Part shown: positions 7,275 to 34,400 of the stretch, piece by piece
Position numbering within the stretch: the first letter of the stretch is position 1
Layout of the letters: each line of letters opens with the position of its first letter
Assembly (NCBI GenBank): GCA_947631565.1
Contig: CANRLV010000017.1
Coordinates: 1-39,209 of the forward strand
From: an uncultured Gemmiger sp.
GTDB taxonomy: Bacteria; Bacillota; Clostridia; Oscillospirales; Ruminococcaceae
Direction: 5' to 3'
Length of the DNA: 39,209 nucleotides
Translations under genes and position numbers: made by a program
The notes under the pieces: model-generated
What the model was told of the DNA's origin: nothing
Databases searched by the model: none
The model's input: the letters and a program-made list of their open reading frames with translations, nothing else

Positions 7275-8612
7275 TTACTGTATAAAGGGGCGGATGCGCG
7301 CCTCCATGCGGGCGATCTCGTCCGGCTCCAAATGCGCCTTGTCCACATAGCCGTAGATGCGCTGGGCAAAGCTTGCCAGCGGCGGGCAGAGCGCGAACAC
7401 GCGCTTGGGCTCCCACTTGTGGCGGTAGAGCCAGTGCACGCCGGCCAGCGCCAGATACTTGAGCAGGTTGAAGTGCGGCGTAAAGCCGGGACCCATCGGC
7501 GTGTCGCGCGGGGGATTTTTGTAGACTTCCTCCAAAAGGTCGGCCATGCGCTGGTAGGCGGGCCGGGGGTCGGGGTCGAAGTAGCCGTCCAGCACCGCGC
7601 GCTCAATGGGGAAGGGCGGCGGGCTGCCGGCCGCCGCGCGCCCCAGCGCGGCTGCAAAGGCGGCGTAGTCGGTGATGTACGCGGCGTTCTTGTAGATGAC
7701 GGGGTCATACTCATGCTCGATGGGCTGCGGGCGCAGGATGAAGCAGGTCTTGCCGGCCATGTACACCTCGGCGATGGCGGTGCTCATCCAGATGGAGATG
7801 TCGTCGGCCGCCAAAATCCACTGCTTGACCGAGTCGGCAAAGATGACGTGGAAGTTGGGCCGCTTGGCGGCCAGTGCCTGCAGGGCGGGGCTGTTCCACT
7901 CGCTGGGGTGGCGGCGGTAGACGAGCTCCACCTCGGGGTGGGCGGCCAGATACTCGTCGAACCATTGCAGCGTTTTCTGCATCGATTCGCGGTTGGTCCT
8001 GGCAAAGCCGGTGAAATCGGTGCCCGCCATCTTGGAGAGCTCGGCGACCTCGTCGTCGTTCATGCTCGCGTAGCCAAAGCTTGAGATATACAGGTGCAGG
8101 CGCTTTTGCGGGTCCAGCCCGTGCTCGCGGCATAAGGCGGCCTTGTCTTTAAAATAGCCGGCAAATTCCGGGCGCAGGAAGTCCATCATCACGGCTCCGG
8201 TCACGGGGGTGTTTTTCGGCTCCATGCCGTGCGCCTGTAACCGGCGGGCCGTCGCCTGCCCCCAGCAGGTCTGCACGCAGCGCTTGGCGCTGCCGTTCAT
8301 GTTGAACCAGTCGCCCTCCTCCTGCGTGTCCGAGAGCATCTGCTCCCAGTGCAGGTTGACGACCTTGTCACAGCGGCCGACATTGTTGTAGACGTGGCTG
8401 TTGAGGGCGGCGTCGTCATACATACAGCTGGCCACCAGCACCTTGGGGCGCTTTGCCGCCGGGCCGAACACCCAAGCCAGGCGCTTGGGGTCCAGCAGCT
8501 GGCGGATCTCGGCCGTATAGCCGCGCCTCTCCAGCTCGAGCTTGAGCAGCAGGTCGCTCTCATACTCGCGCACGGTGTGCTCATACAAGATCAAAAAATC
8601 CGGTGCCTTCAT
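7275..8612 (-). CDS. Surface carbohydrate biosynthesis protein, GT-B / CDP-glycerol-transferase-like
   Basis: A 445-residue soluble protein. It starts with a Rossmann-like segment (residues 4-50) and has a second-half motif VYRRHPSEW followed by a conserved stretch ending SIWMSTAIAEVYMAGK, which matches the R-x-HP and ST-x-x-E-A nucleotide-sugar-binding pattern of surface carbohydrate biosynthesis proteins related to CDP-glycerol glycerophosphotransferases and GT-B enzymes. It is predicted to transfer a sugar or phospho-polyol to a surface glycan precursor on the cytoplasmic side. ATG 8610-8612 overlaps the end of the SGNH gene (ATGA), so the two are translationally coupled. Its donor and acceptor are unknown; that it is a glycan-assembly enzyme is likely, the exact reaction is not. 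Confidence 0.72.
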   Translation of the reverse strand: MKAPDFLILYEHTVREYESDLLLKLELERRGYTAEIRQLLDPKRLAWVFGPAAKRPKVLVASCMYDDAALNSHVYNNVGRCDKVVNLHWEQMLSDTQEEGDWFNMNGSAKRCVQTCWGQATARRLQAHGMEPKNTPVTGAVMMDFLRPEFAGYFKDKAALCREHGLDPQKRLHLYISSFGYASMNDDEVAELSKMAGTDFTGFARTNRESMQKTLQWFDEYLAAHPEVELVYRRHPSEWNSPALQALAAKRPNFHVIFADSVKQWILAADDISIWMSTAIAEVYMAGKTCFILRPQPIEHEYDPVIYKNAAYITDYAAFAAALGRAAAGSPPPFPIERAVLDGYFDPDPRPAYQRMADLLEEVYKNPPRDTPMGPGFTPHFNLLKYLALAGVHWLYRHKWEPKRVFALCPPLASFAQRIYGYVDKAHLEPDEIARMEARIRPFIQ

Positions 8613-9562: not shown

Positions 9563-11041
9563 TTAAAATCCGGCGTACAGGCCAAAACCCGCCGCGCCGC
9601 CAAAGCCGCCGTTCTGCAAAATGTAGCCGACGAGCAAGAACACCACCAGCAGATAGTAGACGGCGGTGCGGTGCTTTTCGGCGCCAAGGCAGTCCTCGGC
9701 CGGGCGGTTTTGGTACACGAGCGCCCGGCGGGCATCCAGCCAAAAGGCCAGCGCCAGCGCCGCCGCCAGGAACGCATAGTAGCCGCCCACCATCAGCGGA
9801 TGGGCGTAAAAGTGGTCGAACACCACGCCGTACAGCTCGGCCCCCAGGCGCGCCGGGGCCCAGCCGCCGGCGCAGGCGGCCAGATACCGCCCGGCATCGG
9901 CCAGCGTACCGCCGCCGCTGCCGACGCGGAAGAACACCATGCCAAAGCACCACAGCGCGAACACGCCGGCCCGCTTGGCCCAAACGATATGCGCCGGGGC
10001 GTGCTTTTTCGGTTTGCCGAGACGGCAGTGCAAGGCCTCCTCGCCCAAACGGCAGGCGGCCTGCCACAGCCCCCAGACGACGAAGGGCCAGCTGTTGCCG
10101 TGCCACAGCCCGGAGACGAAAAACACGATAAAAATGCACAGCGGCGCCGGCAGGTGCCCGCCGAACAGCGCGCCGGTGTCGGCCCAGGCCAGCGGCGTGA
10201 ACAGATAGTCCTGCAGCCACGACGAGAGGCTGATGTGCCAGCGGCTCCAGAAGCCGGAGAAATTGGTGGCAAAAAACGGCGTTTTGAAGTTTTCCGGCAG
10301 TATAAGGCCGAGCAGCAGCCCGACGGCGCGCGCGACCTCGGAATAGCCGCAGAAGTTGAAATAGAGCTGCAGGGTGTAGAAGACCGCCGCCAGCACCCGC
10401 ACCGGTCCGCCGTAGGCGGCGCCGGCGCCGAAGACAGCGTCGACGAAAACGCCCAGCACATCGCTGACCGCGACCAGCTTGAACAGCCCCAGCGCCAGCA
10501 GACGTAAGGCGCGCACGGTGCGCGCGGCGTCAAAGCGGTGCTCGGCGCGCAGCTGCGGCAAAAGCTGCCCGGCCCGGCAGATGGGCCCCTGGGTGACGGT
10601 GGCGAACAGGCTCAAAAACAGCAGGTAATGCAGGGGGCTGCGCTCCGGTTGGCAGGCGCCGGCGGCGACGTCGAACAGGTAGCCCAGCGCCGCAAAGGTG
10701 TAAAAGCTGATGCCCAGCGGCATGGCCACGGCGCGCCAGCCGGAAAGATCTGCAAAGGCGCCGTTGTACTTACAAAACGCCAGCACGGCCACGCTGCCGA
10801 CGGCGCCCAGCGCCAAAAACGCCCGTTTGTGCGCCCCGTCTCCGGCAGCGATGCCCAGCCCGCAGGCCCAGGTCAGGGCAGCCACGCCCAGCAGCACCGG
10901 CAGCGCGCGCGGCATGGCGAGCGCGTAAAAGAACAGGCTGGCGGCGAGCAAAAACGGGCTCTGGACCTTATGCGGCAGGTGCAGGTACACGGCCGCGGTG
11001 ACGAGCAGAAAGGCAAAAAAGCCAAAGCTTTGCAGGCTCAC
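9563..11041 (-). CDS. MBOAT family membrane-bound O-acyltransferase (AlgI/DltB/PatA-like)
   Basis: A 492-residue multi-spanning protein with the MBOAT signature FWSRWHISLSSWL (264-276) and the catalytic histidine in SGLWHGNSW (His314), plus the family's QLYFNFCGYSE segment (~225-235). It moves an acyl (usually acetyl) group across the membrane to the SGNH partner encoded next. GTG 11041 is chosen: GGAGG (plus-strand complement 11051-11055) is nine bases upstream, whereas the first possible GTG at 11059 would lie before that site. It is the first gene of the minus-strand operon and has a good promoter of its own. The family is certain; the acyl group and acceptor are inferred only from family behaviour. 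Confidence 0.93.
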   Translation of the reverse strand: MSLQSFGFFAFLLVTAAVYLHLPHKVQSPFLLAASLFFYALAMPRALPVLLGVAALTWACGLGIAAGDGAHKRAFLALGAVGSVAVLAFCKYNGAFADLSGWRAVAMPLGISFYTFAALGYLFDVAAGACQPERSPLHYLLFLSLFATVTQGPICRAGQLLPQLRAEHRFDAARTVRALRLLALGLFKLVAVSDVLGVFVDAVFGAGAAYGGPVRVLAAVFYTLQLYFNFCGYSEVARAVGLLLGLILPENFKTPFFATNFSGFWSRWHISLSSWLQDYLFTPLAWADTGALFGGHLPAPLCIFIVFFVSGLWHGNSWPFVVWGLWQAACRLGEEALHCRLGKPKKHAPAHIVWAKRAGVFALWCFGMVFFRVGSGGGTLADAGRYLAACAGGWAPARLGAELYGVVFDHFYAHPLMVGGYYAFLAAALALAFWLDARRALVYQNRPAEDCLGAEKHRTAVYYLLVVFLLVGYILQNGGFGGAAGFGLYAGF

Positions 11042-11075
11042 GGCCACACACCTCCACACTATCAGGATATCTCAT

Positions 11076-11104
11076 ATTATACAGGGTTTTGGCGCGTCTG
11101 TAAA
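11076..11104 (-). promoter_or_regulatory. Promoter of the MBOAT-to-hflX operon
   Basis: Reading the minus strand: TTTACA (complement of 11099-11104), 17-base spacer, TATAAT (complement of 11076-11081). Transcription would start near 11069 and reach the GTG at 11041 after a short leader. It faces away from the kinase promoter at 11117-11145. Confidence 0.78.
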
Positions 11105-11116
11105 GGGCGGGGGCGG

Positions 11117-11145
11117 TTGCAAAAACCGCGCCCATGTGCTACAAT
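11117..11145 (+). promoter_or_regulatory. Promoter of the KdgK-like kinase gene
   Basis: TTGCAA at 11117-11122, 17-base spacer, extended minus-10 TGC-TACAAT at 11137-11145. A 12-base perfect palindrome (GCCGCGCGCGGC, starting at 11163) follows in the leader and could be an operator or a hairpin. Confidence 0.7.
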
Positions 11146-11218
11146 ACCAAATAACAAAGCCCGCCGCGCGCGGCACCTGACCACAAAAAACAAATCTTTG
11201 ATACAAAGGAGACGAGCC

Positions 11219-12307
11219 ATGGAACACCACAACCCCATCGCCGCGGACCCGACCAACGCCAAGCGCTTTATCACCATCGGCGAGGTCATGCTGCGCCTGA
11301 CCCCGCCCAACTACGAGAAGATCCGCATGGCCACCAGCTTTGAGGCCAGCTACGGCGGCAGCGAGGCCAACATCGCGCTGGCGCTGGCCAACCTCGGCGT
11401 CGACAGCACCTTCTTCAGCGTCGTGCCGAGCAACTCGCTGGGTAAGAGCGCCGTGCGCTGGCTGCGCTCCAACGATGTGCACTGCACGCCGGTCATCCTC
11501 TCGACTCACGCGCAGACGCCCACCCACCGCCTCGGCACCTATTACCTGGAGACCGGCTACGGCATCCGCGCCAGCAAGGTCACCTATGACCGCAAGCACA
11601 GCGCCTTTACCGAGTTCGATTACTCGACCGTCGACGTCGACGCCCTGCTCGACGGCTTTGACTGGCTGCACCTGTCCGGCATCACGCCGGCGCTGGGCAA
11701 GGGCTGCGCCGATTTCATCCTGCGCTGCCTCAAGACCGCCAAGGAGAAAGGCCTGACCGTCAGCTTTGACGGCAACTTCCGCAGCGCGCTGTGGACCTGG
11801 GAGGAAGCGCGGGACTACTGCACCCAGTGCCTGCCCTATGTCGACGTGTTGTTCGGCATCGAGCCCTACCACCTCTGGCGCGACGAGGACGACCACGCCA
11901 AGGGCGACTATAAGGACGGCGTGCCTCTGCAGCCCAGCTATGAGCAGCAGGACGAGATCTTCCAGGCCTTCATCGCCCGCTATCCCAACCTCAAATGCCT
12001 GGCCCGCCATGTGCGCTACGCGCATTCCGGCTCCGAGAACAGCCTCAAGGCCTTTATGTGGTACGAGGGCCACACCTTTGAGAGCAAGCTGTTCACCTTC
12101 AACATCCTGGACCGCGTGGGCGGCGGCGACGCCTTCGCCAGCGGGCTCATCTACGCCATGATGCACGATTACAAGGCGATGGACATGGTCAACTTCGCGG
12201 TGGCCAGCAGCGTCATCAAGCACACCATCCACGGCGACGCCAACATCACCGACGACGTCGACACCATCCGCAACCTGATGAACATGAACTACGACATCAA
12301 GCGCTGA
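11219..12307 (+). CDS. kdgK: PfkB-family sugar kinase, 2-keto-3-deoxygluconate kinase-like
   Basis: A 362-residue ribokinase-fold enzyme. The substrate-side N-terminus has TIGEVMLRLTPP and the GGSEAN loop (46-51). The middle holds DGNFRSALW (184-192), the D-x-N-x-R pattern of KDG kinases, and the ATP/anion-hole signature GGGDAFASG (301-309) contains catalytic Asp304. KDG kinase phosphorylates 2-keto-3-deoxygluconate on the way to KDPG, in uronic-acid and pectin breakdown. ATG 11219 is preceded by AAAGGAG at spacing about seven. It is transcribed alone from its own promoter and ended by a terminator; no KDPG aldolase or uronate genes lie nearby, so the physiological sugar is inferred from sequence only. 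A different PfkB substrate remains possible. Confidence 0.8.
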   Translation: MEHHNPIAADPTNAKRFITIGEVMLRLTPPNYEKIRMATSFEASYGGSEANIALALANLGVDSTFFSVVPSNSLGKSAVRWLRSNDVHCTPVILSTHAQTPTHRLGTYYLETGYGIRASKVTYDRKHSAFTEFDYSTVDVDALLDGFDWLHLSGITPALGKGCADFILRCLKTAKEKGLTVSFDGNFRSALWTWEEARDYCTQCLPYVDVLFGIEPYHLWRDEDDHAKGDYKDGVPLQPSYEQQDEIFQAFIARYPNLKCLARHVRYAHSGSENSLKAFMWYEGHTFESKLFTFNILDRVGGGDAFASGLIYAMMHDYKAMDMVNFAVASSVIKHTIHGDANITDDVDTIRNLMNMNYDIKR

Positions 12308-12362: not shown

Positions 12363-12391
12363 TTGAAATTTGCCCCCGAATCAGGTATACT
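12363..12391 (+). promoter_or_regulatory. Promoter of the legB-like / GT-C operon
   Basis: TTGAAA at 12363-12368, 17-base spacer, TATACT at 12386-12391. Transcription from about 12398 gives a leader of roughly 60 bases with a small GC hairpin (12425-12430 with 12435-12440) directly before AAAGGAG at 12441-12447. All genes to 20510 could be read from here; no later terminator or promoter is seen inside. Confidence 0.75.
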
Positions 12392-12456: not shown

Positions 12457-13440
12457 ATGTCCCATACCGTGGTCGTTACCGGCGCCGACGGCTTTATCGG
12501 CAGCCATCTGGCTGAGGAGCTGGTCAAAAAAGGCGAGAAGGTGCGCGCTTTCTGCCTGTACAATTCCTTCGGCTCCTGCGGCTGGATCGATACCCTGCCG
12601 CCCGAGATCAAGGGCGAGATGGAGATCTTTATGGGCGACGTGCGGGACCCCAACGGCGTGCGCACCGCCCTGCGCGGGCAGGAACGGGTCTACCACCTGG
12701 CCGCGCTCATCGCCATCCCCTTCAGCTACCACTCGCCCGACAGCTATGTCGACACCAACATCAAGGGCACCCTCAATATTCTGAACGCCGCGCGCGAGCT
12801 CGGCACGCAGCGCGTGCTCGTCACCTCGACCAGCGAGGTCTACGGCACGGCGCAGTATGTGCCCATCGACGAAAAGCACCCCTACCAGGGCCAGAGCCCC
12901 TACTCGGCCACCAAGATCGGCGCCGACCGCCTGGCCGAGAGCTTTTACCGCAGCTTCGACCTGCCGGTGAGCATCGTGCGGCCTTTCAATACCTACGGGC
13001 CGCGGCAGTCCGGCCGGGCCATCATCCCCACCATCATCACCCAGCTGCTGGCCGGGCAGAAGCAGATACGCCTCGGCAGCCTGACCCCGACGCGGGACTT
13101 CAACTACGTCAAGGATACCGTGGCCGGCTTCATGGCCATCGCCGACTGTGACGCCGCCATCGGGCAGGAGCTCAACATCGCCACCGGGCAGGAGCATTCC
13201 ATCGGCGACCTGGCGCGGGAGCTCATCGCCCAGATCGACCCCGCGGCCGAGATCGTCTGCGAGGCCGAGCGTCTGCGCCCCGCCAAGAGCGAGGTCAACC
13301 GCCTGCTGGGCGACGCCACCAAGCTGCGCACCATGACCGGCTGGGCCCCGCAGTACACCTTCGCCGAGGGCCTGGCCGCCACCATCGACTTTTTGCGCGG
13401 CAATCTCGATTCCTACAAGGTCGGGCAATACATTTTGTAA
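12457..13440 (+). CDS. legB: NAD-dependent sugar-nucleotide dehydratase/epimerase, LegB-like (extended SDR)
   Basis: A 327-residue extended short-chain dehydrogenase. The NAD-binding motif TGADGFIGSH is at residues 8-17; Ser/Thr of STSEVYG (124-130) and the YSATK pair (Tyr149, Lys153) are catalytic. The early YNSFGSCGW segment (35-43) is typical of the LegB-type branch, which acts as UDP-GlcNAc 4,6-dehydratase in legionaminic-acid pathways. The usual partner LegC aminotransferase and the sugar synthase are not in this window, so this enzyme may supply a keto-sugar nucleotide for another deoxyamino sugar. It opens a plus-strand operon of membrane glycosyltransferase-like genes. The family is sure; the LegB reaction itself is a similarity-based inference and should be tested. 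Confidence 0.75.
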   Translation: MSHTVVVTGADGFIGSHLAEELVKKGEKVRAFCLYNSFGSCGWIDTLPPEIKGEMEIFMGDVRDPNGVRTALRGQERVYHLAALIAIPFSYHSPDSYVDTNIKGTLNILNAARELGTQRVLVTSTSEVYGTAQYVPIDEKHPYQGQSPYSATKIGADRLAESFYRSFDLPVSIVRPFNTYGPRQSGRAIIPTIITQLLAGQKQIRLGSLTPTRDFNYVKDTVAGFMAIADCDAAIGQELNIATGQEHSIGDLARELIAQIDPAAEIVCEAERLRPAKSEVNRLLGDATKLRTMTGWAPQYTFAEGLAATIDFLRGNLDSYKVGQYIL

Positions 13441-13449
13441 TAATTTTAG

Positions 13450-15114
13450 ATGGATATACGCAACGTAAAAACCGCATCCAGACCGCGCGGCCCCGCCCTC
13501 CGGTGGGGCCTGGCCGTGCTGGGCGCGGTGTGCGCCGGCCTGGGGCTGAGCTATGTTTGGCGGGTGCTCTTTTATCTGGACGAGCGCCTTGCCCCGGCCT
13601 TCGTCACGCTGGGCTGCATCGGACTGGCGCTGCTTTTTGTGGGGGCGGCTGCGCTGGTACGCTTTGCGTGCAGGGGCTTTGCCGCCAAGGGCGCGGCGTG
13701 CATCTTTTTGTGCGGGCTGCTGTTCGTCTTCGCCAACGCGCCGCTGCAGACCCCCGATGAGACGGACCATTATCTGCGCACCTACGCGATCTCGCTGGGC
13801 CGGCTGGACTTTGATGCCGGGCGCGGTTACCCGCAGGACGTGTCGGCCCTGCTCACGGCCTTCCCCGGCGCGTGGGTCAACGCCCACACCTCGGTGGGCG
13901 TCGGCACCGACCCCGTGACCGGCGGTGAGCAGACCTATGACACGGCCGGCTACGCCCTCAAGCGCTGGGGTGACGGGCCGATCCAGAGCGTGGCCGACAG
14001 CTTTGCCGCCTATTTCGGCGGCGAGAGCACCGAGCCGGTGCGCGAACCCTTGAGCTTCCTTATCCTGCCTTTCGTGCCGGGCGCCGTCGGCATGGCGCTG
14101 GCCCGGCTGTTGGGGCTGGGGGCGCTGGGCTGCCTGTACGGCGGGCGCATCGGCAACCTGCTGGCCTACACGCTGCTGTGCCGGTTGGCGCTGCAAAAGG
14201 CGCACCGCGCCCGCCCGCTGCTGCTGGGCTTCATGCTGCTGCCGCTTTCCCTGTATATGGCGGCGAGCCTGAGCTATGATGCCACGCTGCTGGGCGGCTA
14301 CTACCTGATGCTGGCCCTGCTCACCCGTCGGCACTGGAACACCGCCGCGGCCGCGCAGTACGCCGCGGCCTGCGTGTGGGTGAACGTCGCCAAGCCCTAC
14401 CTGAACCTTTTGTGGGTGCTGCTGCCGCTGCTGGTGGCGGCGCCGGACTGGCAGGCAAAGGGCCGCCGCCGGCACTGGTGCCTGGGTATGCTGGCCGGCG
14501 CGCTGGCCGCCGCCGGGCTGGTGGAATGGTACGGCCGCGCGTTCCGGCACGGGTACCCGGCCGTCATTGAACGGCAGGGCGGCGCGGCCGTGGACGGCGC
14601 CGCCCAGCTCGGCTTTATTTTGCGCAACCCGCTGCGTTACCTGGCCGTGGTGCTGGGCACACTGTATGAGAACGACGGCTTTCTCGGCCAGCTGGGCCTG
14701 TTTGGCTGGAAGGACCTGCCGGTGCCGCTGCTCAGCCTGACCGGGCCGCTGGTGCTGGCCGCGGGCGTGCTGTTTTCGGCCGGGGCGGGGCAGAGCCTGG
14801 GCCGCCGGCGCAGCGCGGGGCTGGGCGTGTTTGCCGCCGTCTATGCGCTGGGCGCGATGACCGCCATGTACATCACCTACACCCCGGTGGGCATGGTGCG
14901 CATCGTCGGCTTGCAGGCGCGCTACTTTCTGCCGGTGTTCCTGGCCCTGGGCTTTGGCGCGGCGGCTGCCTTGCGCCGCGCCGCCTGGCCTGACCTTGCC
15001 GCCGAGCGCGCGCAGCGGCTGGCGCTGCCGATCTTCGGCGGGTACGCGGCGCTGGCGGCGGTGCTTTTGTTCCAGCATTATTTTATCGGGCCGTTTTATA
15101 CCGTGCCCGTGTGA
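13450..15114 (+). CDS. DUF2142 family multi-spanning membrane protein (GT-C-like)
   Basis: A 554-residue integral membrane protein with about 11-13 hydrophobic segments. After the first two or three helices comes PDETDHYLRTYAISLG (roughly residues 102-117), the acidic first-loop motif that marks DUF2142 proteins and recalls the catalytic loop of GT-C glycosyltransferases, which use polyprenyl-phosphate sugars outside the membrane. It begins nine bases after the dehydratase stop; no clear Shine-Dalgarno is present before ATG 13450 (AT-rich TAATAATTTTAG), so translation may depend on re-initiation. Function is not experimentally known for most of the family; polysaccharide-locus context supports a glycan polymerase or sugar-transferase role. 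Confidence 0.8.
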   Translation: MDIRNVKTASRPRGPALRWGLAVLGAVCAGLGLSYVWRVLFYLDERLAPAFVTLGCIGLALLFVGAAALVRFACRGFAAKGAACIFLCGLLFVFANAPLQTPDETDHYLRTYAISLGRLDFDAGRGYPQDVSALLTAFPGAWVNAHTSVGVGTDPVTGGEQTYDTAGYALKRWGDGPIQSVADSFAAYFGGESTEPVREPLSFLILPFVPGAVGMALARLLGLGALGCLYGGRIGNLLAYTLLCRLALQKAHRARPLLLGFMLLPLSLYMAASLSYDATLLGGYYLMLALLTRRHWNTAAAAQYAAACVWVNVAKPYLNLLWVLLPLLVAAPDWQAKGRRRHWCLGMLAGALAAAGLVEWYGRAFRHGYPAVIERQGGAAVDGAAQLGFILRNPLRYLAVVLGTLYENDGFLGQLGLFGWKDLPVPLLSLTGPLVLAAGVLFSAGAGQSLGRRRSAGLGVFAAVYALGAMTAMYITYTPVGMVRIVGLQARYFLPVFLALGFGAAAALRRAAWPDLAAERAQRLALPIFGGYAALAAVLLFQHYFIGPFYTVPV

Positions 15115-15141
15115 GTTTGACCCCGGAAGGAGGCGTGCGCC

Positions 15142-17130
15142 ATGGCGTTGCTCAGCGGTGTGCTGGTGCTGGCATTGGTGTGCGCCTTTGCGCTTTGTGC
15201 GGCGGCGCGCACCGGGCTGGATGCCGCCCTGCTGCCCCTGCCCACGCTGGCCGGGGCGGTAGTGGCGCTGCTGGTGTTTGCCTGCCTGGGCGTTTTGCGC
15301 CCCGGCCTGTGGGCGGTGCTGGCGGCGCTGGCGCTGGGGGCCGTCTGGTGCACCGTGCGCGCCGGCATCCCGGCCCTGAAAAAGGCAGCGGCCAGCCCTG
15401 GCTGGGTGCTGTTTGCGGCCGCCTCGCTGTTTTTTTGGGGCGTGCTCGCCGTGCGGCAGCCGATGTTCACCCAATGGGATGAGTTCACGGCCTGGGGCCT
15501 GGCCCCCAAGCTGGTCAAGCAGCTGGATGCCCTGTATGTGGCCGCGCCCGGCAACCTGACAGCCAGCCACACGCTGCCCGGCACCAGCCTGGTCTGCTAC
15601 CTGTTCCTGGCATTTTCGCCCCGGTTTGCCGAGTGGGCGTGCATGGCGGCGCTGGACACACTGGCCATGGCCTGTGCGGCGGCCGCCGCCGGCGGGGCAC
15701 GCGGCAAACGCTGGCCGGCCGGGGTGGTTCTGTTCGCCCTTGCGGCGCTGCTGCCGTTCTGGTTCAGCACAATGCCGGCCGGCACGCCCAACATCACCTA
15801 CGCGAGTGCCATGGCCGATACCCCGCTGGGGCTGGTCTTCGGCGGGGCGCTGTGCCTGTATTTCGCCGCCCCGCGCCGGCGCACCGGCCTGCTGCTGGCC
15901 CTGCTGCCGCTGGCGCTGCTGGCTCTGCTCAAGGATATCGCCTTTGCCTACGGGCTCATCGCCGCCTTTGTCATCGCGCTGGACCGGTTGTTCTGCGCGC
16001 CGGGCGGCGCGGGCCGGCGCATCGGGGCAGCGGGGGGCGCGGTGTGCGCCGCCGCCGCGCCGGTGGTGCTGGCCTTTGTGGGCTGGAACCGCTATACCGC
16101 CGCCGCCGACCCGGCGGTGGAGGCGGCCGGGACCGTGGGCAGCGCGGGTTTAAGCTACGGCGCCGTGCTTGTGGGCGGCGTCAGGCAGCTGCTCGGCATC
16201 GGGCGGGAGGAAAAGTTCGCCCAGCTGATGGATCTGATGGGCCGCGCCTTCTGGCAGCGGCGGGTGGCGCTGGCCGGCGGCAGCTGGCTGGTGCTGGTGC
16301 TGGCCGTGTGCATCGCCGCCGCGGCCGCGCTGACCGAACCTGGGGCCGGCCGGGCCGGGCGCCGCCGCCCGCTGGTGCTGTGCGCGGGGCTGGCTTTCTG
16401 TTTTGCGGCGCTCTACGCGTTCCACCTGATCTTATACCACTATAACTTTGCCGAGAGGGAAGCCCTCGTCCTCAAGGACTATGAGCGCTACCTGACCCCC
16501 TACTTTATCGGCTGGCTGATGCCGCTGCTGGGCTTTTTGGGCCGCGGCGGGCGCCGGGGCGGTCAGGTGCTGGCGCTGGGCGCGGCGGCGCTGGCTGCCG
16601 TCATCGCCTGGCGCGGGGTGCCGACGGCGGGCTTCTGGACGAATGCCGACAGCCTGTATACCCTGCGCGCCGACGTGCAGCGCCGGGCCGCCGCCGCCAA
16701 CGCGGTGCTGGACCAAAACGACCGGGTGCTGGTGCTCAGCCAGGGCGACGACGCCACCCGCTGGTACTATTACAAGTACGAGCTGGCGGGCAAGGTCGTC
16801 AACGGATACGGCGGTATGTGGTGGGGCGATGACGACCTTTCCAGCCGCTGGGACAGCGATTTTATGAACATGGTGGGCAGCTATCGCTTTGGACCCTATG
16901 ACTTTCAGGCCGTGGGCAACGCGAATTCCCTCATCGGCTGGATGACCGAAAAGAGATGCGATTACCTGCTCATCGACCGTGCCGACGCCTATCTGGAGGA
17001 GGATTTCAGCTACGCCTTCGCGGGCGGTCTGACCGCTGATATGCCGGCCACGCTCTACCGCTTTGAGGGCGCGGACAAGGACGTCTGCTTTACCCCGGTG
17101 GCGGTGGCGGAAAGCGGGGTGCAGCGATGA
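15142..17130 (+). CDS. Large GT-C-like membrane protein, module copy 1
   Basis: A 662-residue protein with about 11-13 hydrophobic segments and an extracytoplasmic C-terminal domain (~510-662). The first long loop carries VRQPMFTQWDEFTAWG (about residues 103-118), an acidic D-E pair placed like the catalytic Asp of GT-C enzymes. A second conserved block, YERYLTPYFIGW, precedes the C-terminal domain, which contains DRVLVLSQGDDATRWYYY. I do not recognise a named family. The gene two downstream (17791-19863) shares all these blocks and is clearly a paralogue. ATG 15142 follows GGAAGGAGG at good spacing. The stop overlaps the next start (ATGA). Likely a sugar transferase or polymerase acting on a surface glycan; that is inferred. 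Confidence 0.72.
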   Translation: MALLSGVLVLALVCAFALCAAARTGLDAALLPLPTLAGAVVALLVFACLGVLRPGLWAVLAALALGAVWCTVRAGIPALKKAAASPGWVLFAAASLFFWGVLAVRQPMFTQWDEFTAWGLAPKLVKQLDALYVAAPGNLTASHTLPGTSLVCYLFLAFSPRFAEWACMAALDTLAMACAAAAAGGARGKRWPAGVVLFALAALLPFWFSTMPAGTPNITYASAMADTPLGLVFGGALCLYFAAPRRRTGLLLALLPLALLALLKDIAFAYGLIAAFVIALDRLFCAPGGAGRRIGAAGGAVCAAAAPVVLAFVGWNRYTAAADPAVEAAGTVGSAGLSYGAVLVGGVRQLLGIGREEKFAQLMDLMGRAFWQRRVALAGGSWLVLVLAVCIAAAAALTEPGAGRAGRRRPLVLCAGLAFCFAALYAFHLILYHYNFAEREALVLKDYERYLTPYFIGWLMPLLGFLGRGGRRGGQVLALGAAALAAVIAWRGVPTAGFWTNADSLYTLRADVQRRAAAANAVLDQNDRVLVLSQGDDATRWYYYKYELAGKVVNGYGGMWWGDDDLSSRWDSDFMNMVGSYRFGPYDFQAVGNANSLIGWMTEKRCDYLLIDRADAYLEEDFSYAFAGGLTADMPATLYRFEGADKDVCFTPVAVAESGVQR

Positions 17131-17756
17131 AGCGTGCAAAGCTGACCGCTCGCCAGCTGCTGGCGCTGTGCTATGCGGCGGCGGCGGTGATATGGGTGCT
17201 GCGCTGCGTGCTTGGCTGCGGTGTCATGCTCAACTATAAGCTGCGCGGCGAGATGCCGAGCCTGGTCCTGGGCCCTGCGGACCTTACGGTGGAGAGCATG
17301 ATCGACTGCGCCGCCGACGAATGGACCGACGCCCCCGACGACCGCCCCGACTGGTACCTGACCAGCGACAACGATCCGCACATTTTCTGGCAGGGCGAGG
17401 GCTACATCGAGAGCGTGCGCCTGCACGCCGAGCAGCTTTCACCGCCCGGCGGCGCGGCGCTGTACTATCTGCGCCCCGGCCAGACCGATTATTCCGAGGC
17501 GCAGAAGGTGTTTGCCCGCCTGGGCGCGGCCAACGAACTGATTTTTGACGTGGGCGGCGTGTATGTGACCGGGCTGCGCATCGACCCCGACAGTGTCGGC
17601 GGCGTGTATACGCGCCTGCTGGACGTCACGCTCAACCCGGTCACGCCGTGGCCGCTGCGTTTTGTGCCGGGGGCGGGGGCGTTGCTGCTGCTGCTGTTCG
17701 CGCCGCCGCTGGCGGCGGCGGTGCTGGCGCTGCTGCTGTGCCGCGCCGAAACCTGA
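17127..17756 (+). CDS. Small TM-ectodomain-TM protein, module copy 1
   Basis: A 209-residue protein with one N-terminal membrane segment (~10-36), an extracytoplasmic domain (~40-178) that looks beta-rich, and a C-terminal membrane segment (~182-206). I recognise no named domain. The ectodomain segment LYYLRPGQTDYSEAQKVF followed by GLRIDPDS matches in position and spacing LYYTTRRGEAFSRDKRVF and ALRLDPCS of the protein at 19860-20510, so the two are paralogues. ATG overlaps the stop of the large membrane protein (ATGA at 17127-17130), implying coupled translation and probably a complex. The arrangement suggests an accessory subunit that presents a carbohydrate-binding or lipid-carrier-binding domain beside the GT-C-like protein. 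Function unknown. Confidence 0.7.
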   Translation: MKRAKLTARQLLALCYAAAAVIWVLRCVLGCGVMLNYKLRGEMPSLVLGPADLTVESMIDCAADEWTDAPDDRPDWYLTSDNDPHIFWQGEGYIESVRLHAEQLSPPGGAALYYLRPGQTDYSEAQKVFARLGAANELIFDVGGVYVTGLRIDPDSVGGVYTRLLDVTLNPVTPWPLRFVPGAGALLLLLFAPPLAAAVLALLLCRAET

Positions 17757-17790
17757 CGAGACCGCTGCCGGAAAGGAGGGGACCCCGGGC

Positions 17791-19863
17791 ATGGAGCTGC
17801 TGTGTGTGCTGCCGCCGCTGGCGGCGCTGTGGCTGCTGTGCGCGTTTTTGACCCTCCGCGGCCGGCTGGCCCCAGCGCTGGCGCCGCTGCCGGCACTGGC
17901 GCTGCTCATCACGGCGCTGACCGTGTTCGGCATGGCGGGGGTCCTGGCCCCCGGTATGTGGGCGCTGCTGCTTTTGTGTGCCGCGCTGGGCGCCTGGGCG
18001 CTGGTCCCGCACGGCGGCTGCCGCCCCGACCTGCGCCGGCTCTTTTCACCGGGGGCGGTGCTGTTCTGGGCCGGGGCGTTGGCCTTTGCGGTGTATTTCG
18101 CCGTGCGCCAGCCAATGGCCACCGGCTTTGACGAGCTCAACCTGTGGGCGACGGCGGTCAAGGTGACGGTCACCGACGATGCGCTGTATGCCACCGCGGA
18201 GCTCGGTGTGCCGTGGCCGGTCACACAGAACCCCGGCCTGCCGCTGCTGGGGTACTTTTTCAGCTTTTTCGGCGCCTATGCGGACTGGAAGATCTATTTT
18301 GCTTACGATGTTTTGTTCCTGGCCGTGGACGCCGCCGTGCTGGGCGCGCTGCCCTGGCGGCGCTACCGGCTGTGGGTGCCGCTGGCGGCCATCCTGTGGT
18401 GCGTGCCCTGGTTTTTTACCACCTACAACCACACGGTGTACCTGAACACCGTCTACATGAGCGCCTACGGCGATATCCCGGCCGGGCTGGTCACGGGCGG
18501 GGCCGTGGCGCTGTGGCTGGCCCTGCGCGCCGGCGGCACGCCGCGCACGGCCTGGGCCGTGCTGCCGGTGCTGGCGCTGGCCGCCAACCTCAAGGCCAAC
18601 ACCTTTGTGCTGGCCCTGGTGGCGGCGGGGCTGGTAGCGCTGGACGCGCTGCTGTTCCCGGTCGGGGAGGCCCCCTTTGCCAAAGGGCTGGGCCGCCGGG
18701 CCGGCTTTGCGGCCGCCTGCTTTGCGGCGCCGCTGGGCATATATTATTTGTGGAACGTCCGCTACGTCGGCTGGCTGGCGGCCCGCAATGCCGCCGCCGG
18801 CGGCATGGGCGAGACCTCGCTGCCCCTGTCCGGCGTGGTGGTCAATGGGCTGCGGCTGCTGCTGGGCGGCAGCGTCCCGCCGGAATACGCCGCGCGGGGA
18901 CCGCAGTTCCGCCGGGCCATGGCCGATATGGGCGCGCAGTTTTGGGGCGCCGGCGGCCGCCTGACGATGGTCGGCCAGGGCTGTGTGGTCACGGCGCTGA
19001 TTTTGGCCGTGTTTGCGGCCGCCTGCCTGCTGGCCGGGAAAGGCTGGCGGCGCCCGGCCGTGCTGGGGGCGGCCAGCCTGACCTGCTTCGGCGGCTACAA
19101 CCTGATGCTGGCGCTGAGCTACGGCTTTATCTTCAAGCCGTTCCAGGCCGAGGCCCTGGCCGACTACAACCGCTACATCTACAGCTACTACATCGCCTGG
19201 TTCCTGGTCGCGCTGGTCTGCCTGGTGCAGGCGCTGGCCGCCCTGGACCCGCAGCGGCACCGGGCGCTGGCCGGGCAGGCGCTGGTGCTGGTGTTGGCCG
19301 CCGGTATGCTGCTGCGCTGGCACCAGCTGGTGCTGCCGCAGCTGTCGGTGCTGGGCTTTTCCGACAGTGAGTTCATCGACCGCCGCCGTGACCGCGATGA
19401 GGCCGCGGCCGTCAGCCGCGCTTTGGACGAGACCGACCGTATCTTCTTTGTCAGCCAGGGCGACAACGGCCAGCGCTGGTTCTCGGCCGTGTTTGATTTC
19501 TATCCGCTGGCCGTCGACTATTCCGGGACCGTGGAACAGGGCGGGGGCGGCGGCACCTTCGGCCTGGCGGCGCTGGAGCCGGCGGACGAGGGCGTGAAAA
19601 AGTACTATTACCACCCCTACACGGCCGCCGAGCTGGACGCCGCCGTGCGCCAAAGCGGCTGCACCGTGCTGTACATACAGGCGCTCGACGATATCTTCGT
19701 GCAGAGCTATGCCGAGCTGTTCACCGACGGTCTGGCCGCCGCGCAAGACGGTACGACGCCGATCTACCGCGTGACGGATGCCGGCTTTGCCCCCGAGCCC
19801 TTGCCGGACCCGCTGCCGGCGGGCGCCGCGGCCATGGCGGCGTTGCGGGAGGTGGCGCCATGA
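17791..19863 (+). CDS. Large GT-C-like membrane protein, module copy 2
   Basis: A 690-residue multi-spanning protein, paralogue of the one at 15142-17130. Shared blocks in the same order: VRQPMATGFDELNLWA with the D-E pair in the first long loop, YNRYIYSYYIAWFL before the C-terminal domain, and DRIFFVSQGDNGQRWF within it. It has extra extracytoplasmic sequence after helix 5 (YNHTVYLNTVYMSAYGD) that is also partly kept in copy 1 as TPNITYASAMAD. ATG 17791 is chosen because GAAAGGAGG lies 11-19 bases upstream; the frame is open further upstream but lies within the preceding gene. Stop overlaps the next start. Inferred role: a second polyprenyl-phosphate-sugar transferase with a different donor or acceptor. 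Confidence 0.72.
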   Translation: MELLCVLPPLAALWLLCAFLTLRGRLAPALAPLPALALLITALTVFGMAGVLAPGMWALLLLCAALGAWALVPHGGCRPDLRRLFSPGAVLFWAGALAFAVYFAVRQPMATGFDELNLWATAVKVTVTDDALYATAELGVPWPVTQNPGLPLLGYFFSFFGAYADWKIYFAYDVLFLAVDAAVLGALPWRRYRLWVPLAAILWCVPWFFTTYNHTVYLNTVYMSAYGDIPAGLVTGGAVALWLALRAGGTPRTAWAVLPVLALAANLKANTFVLALVAAGLVALDALLFPVGEAPFAKGLGRRAGFAAACFAAPLGIYYLWNVRYVGWLAARNAAAGGMGETSLPLSGVVVNGLRLLLGGSVPPEYAARGPQFRRAMADMGAQFWGAGGRLTMVGQGCVVTALILAVFAAACLLAGKGWRRPAVLGAASLTCFGGYNLMLALSYGFIFKPFQAEALADYNRYIYSYYIAWFLVALVCLVQALAALDPQRHRALAGQALVLVLAAGMLLRWHQLVLPQLSVLGFSDSEFIDRRRDRDEAAAVSRALDETDRIFFVSQGDNGQRWFSAVFDFYPLAVDYSGTVEQGGGGGTFGLAALEPADEGVKKYYYHPYTAAELDAAVRQSGCTVLYIQALDDIFVQSYAELFTDGLAAAQDGTTPIYRVTDAGFAPEPLPDPLPAGAAAMAALREVAP

Positions 19864-20510
19864 AGCAGCGTTTGCGGGCTCTTTTGGGCCGCCGGGCCGG
19901 GCTGGCGCGCCTGTGCTATGCGCTGGCGGCGCTGGGCTGGCTGGCGTGGGGCGTGTACGCCCGCCTGGACGATGCCGGTCTGCGCGCCGCGCAGAGCAGC
20001 CTGCCGGTGTCGGCCTTCACGCTGACGGACCTTGCGCCGGACCCCGACGTGCAGGGCGGCTGCCGCGCGTTGAGCGGTGACCCGCAGATGCGGTGGGAGA
20101 ACACCGACGGCAAAAAGCTCCGCACCGTGAGCTATACGGCGGAATTTTTGGGCGGTGAACCGCGGGAAATGTGCCTCTACTACACCACCCGCCGCGGCGA
20201 GGCGTTCAGCCGCGACAAGCGGGTGTTCCCGACCCTGCTGCCGACGGGGCGGTATGTGTACACGCTGCCGCACGGCCCCATCGCCGCCCTGCGCCTGGAC
20301 CCCTGCAGCCCCGCGGAGACCGGCGACCCGGTGACGGTGGTGTTCGGGTCCGGCGGCATCGACCTCAACTACGGCCCGACGCTGCCGCAGGGCTGGCAGT
20401 ATTTCGTGCCGGATGTGTATACGGCCTTCTGCCTGCTGCTGTACCCGGCGCTGGCCGCCGCCCTGCTCGACTGGCTGCGGGCCGTGGTTCGGCAGCTGCG
20501 CGGGACATAA
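19860..20510 (+). CDS. Small TM-ectodomain-TM protein, module copy 2
   Basis: A 216-residue protein with an N-terminal membrane segment (~15-36), a beta-rich extracytoplasmic domain (~40-178) and a C-terminal membrane segment (~182-203). It is paralogous in layout and in several segments to the protein at 17127-17756: in both, a LYY strand, then a (V/L)F turn, an LR(I/L)DP strand and a terminal L-N strand occur with similar spacing. It overlaps the upstream large membrane protein by four bases (ATGA), just as copy 1 does. No named domain is recognised. It is the last gene of the plus-strand operon and is followed by the structured segment and terminator at 20540-20696. Confidence 0.68.
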   Translation: MKQRLRALLGRRAGLARLCYALAALGWLAWGVYARLDDAGLRAAQSSLPVSAFTLTDLAPDPDVQGGCRALSGDPQMRWENTDGKKLRTVSYTAEFLGGEPREMCLYYTTRRGEAFSRDKRVFPTLLPTGRYVYTLPHGPIAALRLDPCSPAETGDPVTVVFGSGGIDLNYGPTLPQGWQYFVPDVYTAFCLLLYPALAAALLDWLRAVVRQLRGT

Positions 20511-20696: not shown

Positions 20697-20764
20697 GATG
20701 GGGTGTGTCCAAGAGAGGGGTGCAGGCGGACCGGCGCAGCCAGTAACGCCGAACCCCTCTTTTG

Positions 20765-20794
20765 AAGCGTGTCGAGTTTCTCGACACGCTTTTA
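20765..20794. terminator. Hairpin at the 3' end of the GT2 operon
   Basis: A perfect 12-bp stem (20765-20776 with 20780-20791), loop TTT, overlapping the end of the minus-strand GT2 gene. A T-run (20790-20793) follows on the plus strand; on the minus strand none follows directly. A weaker repeat AGAGGGGT/ACCCCTCT (from 20714 to about 20760) lies between the two hairpins. Confidence 0.6.
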
Positions 20795-31457: not shown

Positions 31458-34400
31458 ATGACCAAAACGCACAAAAAACGGTACAGGGCGCCGGCGGCGC
31501 TGCTGTGCCTTTGTATGCTCCTTGCAACGCTGGGCAGCGCGTTCCCGCTGCCGGCCGCCGCCCAGGCGGCCACGCCGGAGACGGTGCAAACCGCGCCGGA
31601 AGCAGCACCCACGCCCGCGCCGGAGACAGAGCCGCAGCCGTCGCCGCCGGCCGCGTACGCCGCAGGGGTACAAGCCACACCGGAAACGGAGCCGCCGGCA
31701 CCCACGCCGGTACCCTCGACGGCGGAGACCGCACCGGCCACGCCGGAGACTTCGCAAGCCACGCCGGAAGCAGTGCCGGTCACGCCGGAGGTGTTTCCGA
31801 CTACGCCGGAGACGGCCGCGGGGGAGGAAAAAGAAGGCGCAGCCACGCCGGAAACGGCCCCTCTGACCGTACAAGCCCCCGTGCCGATACGCAGCGTTCC
31901 GCAAACGGAGATCTATGTGCCCGACGCCCCGGCGGACCGGGCGGATGCGCTTTCCGTTCCGACCGTCGCGGAAGCGGTGGAACAGCTGGCGGACGGCGGC
32001 ACCCTGTGGCTGACGGCCGATGCGCAGACGGATACCGTTGCCCTGACCGGCGGCAAGCCGGTGACCTTGCGCTCCTGGGGCGGGGGAGCCTACACCTTAA
32101 GCAAGACCGGCCGCGGCGCGAACCTGCTGGCACTGTCCGACGGCGCGGCGCTGACGCTGGAGAACGTGGTGCTGGACGCCGCCGGCGCCGCGGGCCGCAC
32201 CGTTACGGTCCAAAGCGGCGCCGCCCTGGCCCTGGGTGAGGGCGCGGTGCTGCGGAACAACAAGTCCGGCGGCGCTGTGTTCCTTGACGGCGCGGCGCTT
32301 ACCGTGGACGGCGGCAGCATCCAAAACAATACCGCCGCCGGCGCGGCCGGCACAAAGGAGTATCCGGCGGCCGGGAACTGGAAGACGGCCGGCACGCGCT
32401 ACATTTATAATGAGACCGACGGCGAGGGGCCGGGCCTTGGCGGCGCCGTGCTGATGGTGAACGGGTCGACGCTCACCGTGACCGGCGGTGACATCAGCGG
32501 CAACACCGCGCTGTGCGGCGGCGCCGTCTACGCCTGGGACGCGGGCGCCATCACGCTGGACGGCGGCACGTTCGCGGACAATCAGGCGCAGGCCGCGGGG
32601 GATATCCCCGCCGCCGGCGGTGCGCTCTGTGTGGACGGCGGCGGCCGCGCCCGTGTGACCGTGGACGGCGCCGTGTTTACCGGCAACAGCGCCGAACAGG
32701 GCGGTGCGATTTGCTTTGGCATCGAAGCGGGCAGCGTCGATTTCACCGTGACCGCGGGCACCTTCACCGGCAACGAATCGGCCGGCCACGGGTCGGTGCT
32801 CTATGCCGAGGCCGCGGACTGCGTGACCGATGTCAGCGGGGCGGACACGGTATTTTCCGGCAACCGGGCCGGCGGGTCGGGCGGGCTCTATCTGGACCGT
32901 TACCCGCAGGGCGAACGCTCCGCGCGCGCCGCCGTCAACATCCATGACGGCGTCCGGTTTGAAAACAACCGGGCCCAACGGGGCGCCTGCCTGTATATCA
33001 CCGAGAACGACGCCGTCAGCTCGTGCCGCATCAGCGGCGCCGGCTTTACCGGCAACGAGGCGTCCGCGTGGGGCGGCGCGCTGTATTGCCGCGTCTCCGG
33101 CGCGCAGATCACCCTCGAAAATTCGACCTTCCAACGCAATAAAGCAAATGAGGGCGCCGGCGGCGTTCTGTACCACACCGTCGGCACGGACGATGTGTAC
33201 ACGGTCAAAAACTGCACCTTTGAAGAGAATGCCAGCGACCGGCAGTACGGCGAGGGCGGCGGCTTTTGCATCAAGGGCAAAAACATCGACCTGACCGTCG
33301 CGGGCGGCCGCTTTGCACACAACACCGCCTGGGACAACGGCGGCGCGTTCTCGGTCTACCTGGACGGCGGCAGCGTGACGGTCGACGGGACCGAGTTCAC
33401 CGGCAATGCCTCCGGCAGCTCGGGCGGCGCGTTCATCGCCTTCATCGCGGACGCCGCCGTGACCGTGACCGGCGGCGCGCAGTTCGCGGAAAACACTGCC
33501 GATGTGAACGCCGGCGCTTTCTCGGTCCGGCGCTACGCCAGGGACCGCTGCGGCACGGTCGAGCTGCTGGAATGCGATGTGCACGACAACGTCTGCAACG
33601 CCAACTTTGCCAACTACACGCAGGCCGACCTTGAGCCCACAAAGCACTACAATACCGGCGGCATCTATATCGGCGAGAACATCACCTGCCATATGTACGA
33701 TGCCCTCGTCACCGGCAACTATGTCGCCGGCGGCTACCGCGGCAACACCGTGGGCAGCGGCATCGGCCTTTGCCCCAACGCGCAGGTGTATCTGCTGCCG
33801 GAGCACGGTGCCGCGGTCTACGGCAACGGTCTGCCGGGCACCGATACCATGGACATCCTCGCCGTCCCCTATGACTACCCGGTCATCACCCACGAGACGC
33901 CCGCCAGGCTCTATATCAGCGCCGTCACGCCGGACGGGCGAGCCTGCAACTGGACCGGCCTGGACAACGCCAAAGCGCGCGCCGGCGCCTATGACTGGAC
34001 CAACGCCCGCAATGGCGTGGCCGCGGCGTCGGCGGGCGGCTATGCGGGCGAGCAGGACCTTGACCCGGTCGGCTTCAAGGCCAACCTCGGCGGCGCGGGC
34101 GTGCGCACGGCAGCCGCTGCAAACGGGCCGCAGCAGTACAAGGTCCGCATCGTCAACAACCACACCAAAAGCGCCCTCTACGCCGGCGGCGGCGTGATGG
34201 TGAACGGCACGGTCATCGCCGGCGAATTCTCGGTCTCGGTGCACAAGATCGTCACCGTCAACGGCGCGACCGCGGCCAGGCAGAGTGCGCTCCAAACACA
34301 GCAGCCGTTCCGGTTCCGCTTCAGCATCGTCGATACCGGCGCCGGGGGCGGCGCGTCCGACCTCACCGCGCCGAGCGCCCCGGTCCAATATTCGACGGAC

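Follow-up and report, generated by a model that had tools for sequence, protein, structure and literature searches.

Two tandem pairs of membrane-protein genes in Gemmiger as candidate two-subunit GT-C glycosyltransferases

Introduction

In EmbC, AftD and ORF12 of Citrobacter youngae (GT136), a carbohydrate-binding module (CBM) fused to a GT-C enzyme binds the acceptor; that of ORF12 is extracytoplasmic and binds the unmodified polymer, but it proved dispensable (PMC11127046). For smaller GT-C enzymes, a review of 2021 speculates that a second protein is needed to bind the acceptor, and its section 8 does not name such a protein (PMC8035078). Here we describe two pairs of genes in a stretch of 39,209 nucleotides from an uncultured Gemmiger sp. 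(GenBank contig CANRLV010000017.1; the whole stretch is called the window). Each pair consists of a gene for a large membrane protein (Big1, Big2) overlapped at its end by a gene for a small one (Sm1, Sm2). We propose, with a probability of about 0.6, that the two proteins of each pair together form an extracytoplasmic glycosyltransferase belonging to a cell-surface glycan cluster, the small one being its detached acceptor-binding module.

The likeness to EmbC, AftD and ORF12 would lie in the combination of a GT-C membrane fold with a beta-strand-rich extracytoplasmic module, in our case one that is predicted and may be CBM-like; the difference is that their CBM is part of the same chain, whereas here it would be a separate, membrane-anchored product for each enzyme copy. 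Multi-component transmembrane glycosylation systems such as GtlB, YfhO and GacL also employ a GT-C enzyme on the outside with a lipid-linked donor (PMC8035078), but the plus-strand run in Gemmiger holds no GT-A partner, a GT2 gene being present downstream on the opposite strand. The nearest described layout is that of the lactococcal WpsI and WpsH, a multi-spanning DUF2142 protein and a protein whose terminal membrane segments flank a large outer loop (PMC12599335, PMC10821137). Compared by description, both systems place a multi-spanning protein and an outer-loop partner in a cell-wall polysaccharide cluster, but WpsI is a DUF2142 protein and Big1 and Big2 are not; in the window it is the gene upstream of Big1 that encodes one. 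The text of PMC10821137 and one of its legends disagree as to which of WpsI and WpsH is the polymerase, and the same two names have been applied to unrelated Actinoplanes proteins (PMC13390465). Searches of open-licence PMC papers for a GT-C enzyme whose CBM is a detached subunit showed no such system described, only the idea raised for WpsI/WpsH and the speculation of the review; nor, among the matches listed there, do titles or abstract openings name a Gemmiger surface glycan.

Results

An earlier note on this DNA had read the four open reading frames (ORFs) as a tandem duplication of a translationally coupled two-gene module. Its coordinates are correct, and the ATGA that ends each large ORF (17127-17130 and 19860-19863) does contain the start of the following small gene. 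Big1 and Big2 are indeed related: they share 33% identity (BLASTP E 4e-49) and align over nearly their full length with an hhalign probability of 100 (E 7e-56), far above chance. The motif blocks by which their kinship was first suspected (VRQPM..DE, Y-x-RY..W and DR(V/I)...SQGD) are present in both copies, but SQGD is not universal in distant relatives. An alignment of 38 divergent large proteins retains D114, D228, K268, Y444, R461 and Y462 (Big2 numbering) in every row, and E115 and W119 in at least 90% of them.

The predicted structure of Big2 is a GT-C membrane fold, matched best by ArnT and single-sugar transferases, with oligosaccharyltransferases also among the matches. D114 comes shortly after helix 87-106 of this model, and the loop carrying D114 and E115 is probably extracytoplasmic; acidic residues in the first large extracytoplasmic loop are a mark of the GT-C glycosyltransferase superfamily, and the large protein shows them. 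Model and conservation together bear out the suggestion of a GT-C fold with an early D-E pair. A pair resembling GacI and GacJ, a GT-A enzyme with a small activator, is excluded for the large protein by its predicted GT-C fold. Also in agreement with the earlier note, Pfam and NCBIfam, searched to E up to 1, provide no family for any of the four proteins, the one match, below cutoff, of Big1 to a RelB transactivation domain (E 0.05) being judged noise; searches of PDB sequences with profiles of the large and small proteins returned no relative and a single noise match (E 2.2).

The two small proteins share the pattern LYY...VF...LRxDP and are likewise related (BLASTP E 5e-5; hhalign 99.4, E 1.2e-21). 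They are not chance ORFs, since both match in all 19 Gemmiger loci considered below and the domain recurs in 35 of 197 genomes of the family. The layout ascribed to them, an ectodomain between two transmembrane helices, is recovered for Sm1 at both ends by Kyte-Doolittle hydropathy and for Sm2 at both ends in the structure model, but hydropathy finds only the C-terminal helix of Sm2. Residues 46-170 of Sm2 are modelled as a beta-sandwich, which may be likened to a CBM6/32/86-type fold; by sequence, neither small protein falls in a CBM family in the Pfam, NCBIfam and PDB searches.

The pairing was followed through 60 loci, comprising the window, 19 Gemmiger loci and 40 other stretches, some of them from the same genome. 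These hold 98 large ORFs, 92 of them near-complete, and a small ORF lies immediately 3' of 80 of the 92. The 12 without such a neighbour are those of L038 (at a contig end), L097 to L103, L113, L110 (another family) and L003 (a paralogue in the genome of the window), and the first of two in L092. Among the 80 pairs, 61 have the first start considered for the small gene at -4 (40 ATG, 20 GTG and 1 TTG); because a TGA stop preceded by A, G or T yields NTG at -4, this overlap is partly forced, and the evidence for coupling is therefore the constant distance, not the start codon alone. Loci contain one, two or three pairs and the copy numbers mostly vary together, L092 with two large genes and one small being a departure.

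The tree of the 80 large proteins corresponds closely to that of their 80 small partners (r 0.918). When partners were shuffled within the 33 loci that have at least two pairs, none of 2000 trials attained this value (mean 0.21, maximum 0.45); with Gemmiger excluded, the remaining 41 pairs give r 0.824 against shuffles with a mean of 0.37 and a maximum of 0.66. In both trees, midpoint-rooted and pruned for display, the first-position proteins of two- and three-pair loci form one clade free of second- and third-position proteins. Such loci occur in Gemmiger and 11 other genera, and the two-gene unit was therefore duplicated before these genera arose; the pair of L092 is in conflict, its large protein grouping with position 1 and its small protein with position 2. 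Thus the module is a duplicated unit with homologous parts, as first proposed, but not a fresh one: it is older than the genus, and a recent tandem duplication is ruled out by position-1 clades that cover 12 genera.

Sampled evenly, 197 genomes of the family included 36 with a match to a large-protein profile built from Gemmiger alone; the corresponding small-protein profile matched 30 (29 shared with the large), and a more diverse small profile, fused copies counted, matched 35. With the latter, large and small occur together in 34 genomes against 6.4 expected (Fisher 1.3e-34, a value overstated since the genomes are related); two have the large without the small (G095, G123) and one the small without the large (G045). 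Among 245 genomes drawn from the order, family members included, the large profile matched seven, strongly in two members of the family and weakly in five from other families (E 4.5e-11 to 4.1e-5), while the small profile matched only the same two members of the family. At the level of the phylum, 348 genomes gave six with a match to the diverse large profile and three with a match to the small profile, the genome of the window being counted in each. A search of named genomes with Big2 recovered 19 loci, labelled Gemmiger (17) or Subdoligranulum (2), with best-segment identities of 60-70%; the run from LegB through DUF2142, Big1, Sm1 and Big2 to Sm2 is intact in 18 of these and in L014 ends with its contig.

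The constant partnership claimed in the earlier note needs a boundary. Inside the family it is dedicated and co-evolving, as the tree correlation and the 34 of 36 genomes attest, but two observations weigh against strict pairing: outside the family, there are relatives of the large protein that lack any recognisable small partner, and the genome of the window itself holds a third, distant large paralogue (L003 644-2641, C123) that stands alone. The ORF after this paralogue resembles, by eye, an HD-domain protein. L164 5391-9164, also outside the family, carries tandem relatives of the large protein with no recognisable small partners. That the small protein might instead be the partner of DUF2142 is disfavoured by gene counts and by its overlap with the large gene.

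At four loci (L097, L102, L103 and the truncated L109) a large gene stands beside a DUF2142 gene without any separate small gene, and the DUF2142 protein bears an N-terminal region of the small type. The DUF2142 identity comes from Pfam for L097 and L102 and from BLAST to the DUF2142 protein of the window for L103 and L109. The same fusion in L159 and L160 brings the total to six genomes. Further arrangements were seen: in L104 (5804-7588) an ABC-2 permease (PF01061) of the polysaccharide-export kind, which scores 77 bits with a galactan permease model, below the cutoff of 380, carries two small-type ectodomains on its N-terminal side; in L161 (7912-14851), from another family, a DUF6056 membrane protein has two C-terminal small-type domains, a WbsX-type transferase has one at its N-terminus and a further ORF matches marginally. 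L162 is a weak case (E 1.2e-6).

These detections are of unequal independence. The fusions of L097, L102, L103 and L109 were not among the 45 round-0 hits and joined the iterated profile in rounds 1 and 2 (threshold 1e-4), so their later E-values are inflated, the profile having been trained on an ORF set that includes them; their rows are also in alignment A9, which served the diverse small-profile surveys of family and phylum. The profile that scored the fusions in L159 to L162 had not seen them in training, and both L104 domains were detected by the Gemmiger-only profile. We regard it as good evidence for a common glycan-handling function that the domain stands alone as a partner at some loci and is joined at others to glycan enzymes or to an exporter-like permease. 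Two more DUF2142 proteins in the genome of the window (L170 7066-9849, C1; L171 6717-9140, C36) have a long N-terminal extension that appears ectodomain-like and membrane-anchored; neither extension matches the small-protein profile, and other types of ectodomain may fill the same part.

DUF2142 itself (PF09913), likewise a multi-spanning family found in glycan clusters, shares with the large proteins a series of conserved residues in the same order, DE, D, K and RY: D114E115, D228, K268 and R461Y462 of Big2 correspond to D103E104, D277, K315 and R491Y492 in the DUF2142 protein of the window, a pattern taken from 15 such proteins. Neither Big1 nor Big2 matches PF09913 at E up to 1, and hhalign of the large-protein profile with DUF2142 is suggestive (55.8%, E 1.1e-4), aligning the lysine and the RY pair. 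On this sequence comparison, the two families of the operon may be distant siblings. We take both DUF2142 and DUF6056 proteins to be GT-C-like, in the case of DUF2142 also from the residue pattern.

Table 1. Features of the window around the two large-small gene pairs (aa, amino acids)
Feature	Position	Strand	Evidence
Big1, large GT-C-type membrane protein, 662 aa	15142..17130	+	ORF, BLASTP, hhalign
Sm1, small membrane protein with ectodomain, 209 aa; ATGA overlap with Big1	17127..17756	+	
Big2, large GT-C-type membrane protein, 690 aa; structure modelled	17791..19863	+	
Sm2, small membrane protein with ectodomain, 216 aa; ATGA overlap with Big2; modelled	19860..20510	+	
Sm2 beta-sandwich, residues 46-170, CBM-like predicted fold	19995..20369	+	structure model
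Big2 D114-E115 codons, best conserved acidic pair	18130..18135	+	38-row alignment; putative catalytic role
Big1 matching D-E pair codons	15478..15483	+	alignment
DUF2142 membrane protein, same run, 5' of Big1	13450..15114	+	PF09913 133.5 bits, cutoff 30.1
LegB-type NAD-dependent 4,6-dehydratase, opens run	12457..13440	+	TIGR04180 496.7 bits, cutoff 475
Promoter-like site 5' of LegB	12363..12391	+	weak: 1 found, 0.9 expected by chance
Terminator-like hairpin, 13 pairs, 3' of Sm2	20764..20792	+	
MBOAT acyltransferase, DltB-like, divergent arm	9563..11059	-	PF03062; TIGR04091 147 bits, below cutoff 375
Surface carbohydrate biosynthesis protein	7275..8612	-	TIGR04396 259 bits, cutoff 125

The pairs close a six-gene run on the plus strand, 12457-20510 (Table 1). 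For Big2 we favour the ATG at 17791 over a longer ORF from a GTG at 17593, because a Shine-Dalgarno-like AAAGGAGG ends 11 nucleotides upstream of the former. A divergent arm encodes the MBOAT acyltransferase, a 313-aa protein, the TIGR04396 surface carbohydrate protein and a 494-aa protein. Of the 40 other stretches, 14 have a relative of the MBOAT gene nearby; within the genus, where 1.4-2.7 kb upstream of LegB were covered, it lies upstream in only one of the 18 Gemmiger loci with LegB (L005). As this gene, together with the shadow of a kinase gene, is found there only in L005, the arm is evidently swapped or variable within Gemmiger. The kinase gene (PfkB sugar kinase, 10538-12307 on the plus strand, conserved from about 11200 to 12307) lies between MBOAT and LegB and scores 314 bits with NF041633, below cutoff; a minus-strand ORF at 11072-12232 looks like its shadow. 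In several other genera LegB and MBOAT face each other directly. Further along the window (31458-35726, plus strand) is an adhesin-like protein of 1422 aa with beta-helix, DUF7601 and DUF5979 domains. The cluster resembles those for acylated surface polysaccharides, and its product may include a LegB-derived sugar.

Discussion

In proposing how such a pair would work, we suppose that a lipid-linked sugar arrives at the outer face of the membrane, where the large protein, a predicted GT-C enzyme, would use a polyprenyl-linked donor and transfer a sugar or oligosaccharide from it. The small protein, a predicted CBM-like beta-sandwich held outside by two helices, would grip the acceptor surface polymer beside the active site; the partnership is drawn from genomics, and glycan binding and contact between the two proteins are presumed. 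The two copies go back to an old duplication of the whole pair; both have been retained, and the simplest reason would be that each makes a different linkage. The fusions to DUF2142, DUF6056, a WbsX-type transferase and a polysaccharide-exporter-like permease point to a general role of the small-type domain in glycan handling.

The same two proteins could be cast otherwise, and the WpsI/WpsH layout suggests how: the large protein would polymerise lipid-linked repeat units and the small one set chain length, as proposed for the lactococcal proteins. With a multi-spanning DUF2142 protein and an outer-loop partner in that system (PMC12599335, PMC10821137), and a small-type domain fused to DUF2142 in six genomes, this has some appeal; we nonetheless consider it unlikely, for Pfam does not place the large proteins in DUF2142, the modelled fold of the small domain is CBM-like, and a cluster with two or three diverged pairs next to a DUF2142 gene is more readily explained by several linkages than by a single polymerisation step. 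Close co-evolution and translational coupling would equally be expected of a small protein that merely stabilises or positions the large one without binding sugar, and jelly-roll folds do serve protein-protein contacts; but fusion of small-type domains to unrelated enzymes and an exporter-like permease argues for a shared ligand over a single protein partner, which makes a purely structural subunit distinctly improbable. As to the large protein, oligosaccharyltransferases, themselves GT-C folds, are among its structural matches, so it might act as a ligase that transfers a whole polymer to an anchor. ArnT and single-sugar transferases match best and we give the ligase very little credence, yet fold cannot separate the two.

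A two-subunit glycosyltransferase with a detached acceptor-binding module is thus our preferred account of each pair. More tentatively, and at a little under even odds, we suggest that it typifies a class of GT-C enzymes in which an acceptor-binding CBM is a separate, double-anchored subunit encoded in a coupled cassette; such cassettes would duplicate and diverge into linkage-specific series, with the module also plugged in cis into DUF2142, DUF6056, WbsX-type and exporter-like proteins. The GT-C enzyme and the CBM-like part are each known in kind; what is new is their split into a coupled, duplicating cassette.

The large-small cassette is a concrete candidate for the second, acceptor-recognising protein raised in the review (PMC8035078). 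Natural fusions, a dedicated partner, a fold prediction and the presence of two or three diverged copies in one operon make that question testable. The cassette also adds an unannotated candidate glycosyltransferase family in a gut genus, and offers a way into the study of Gemmiger's surface glycan.
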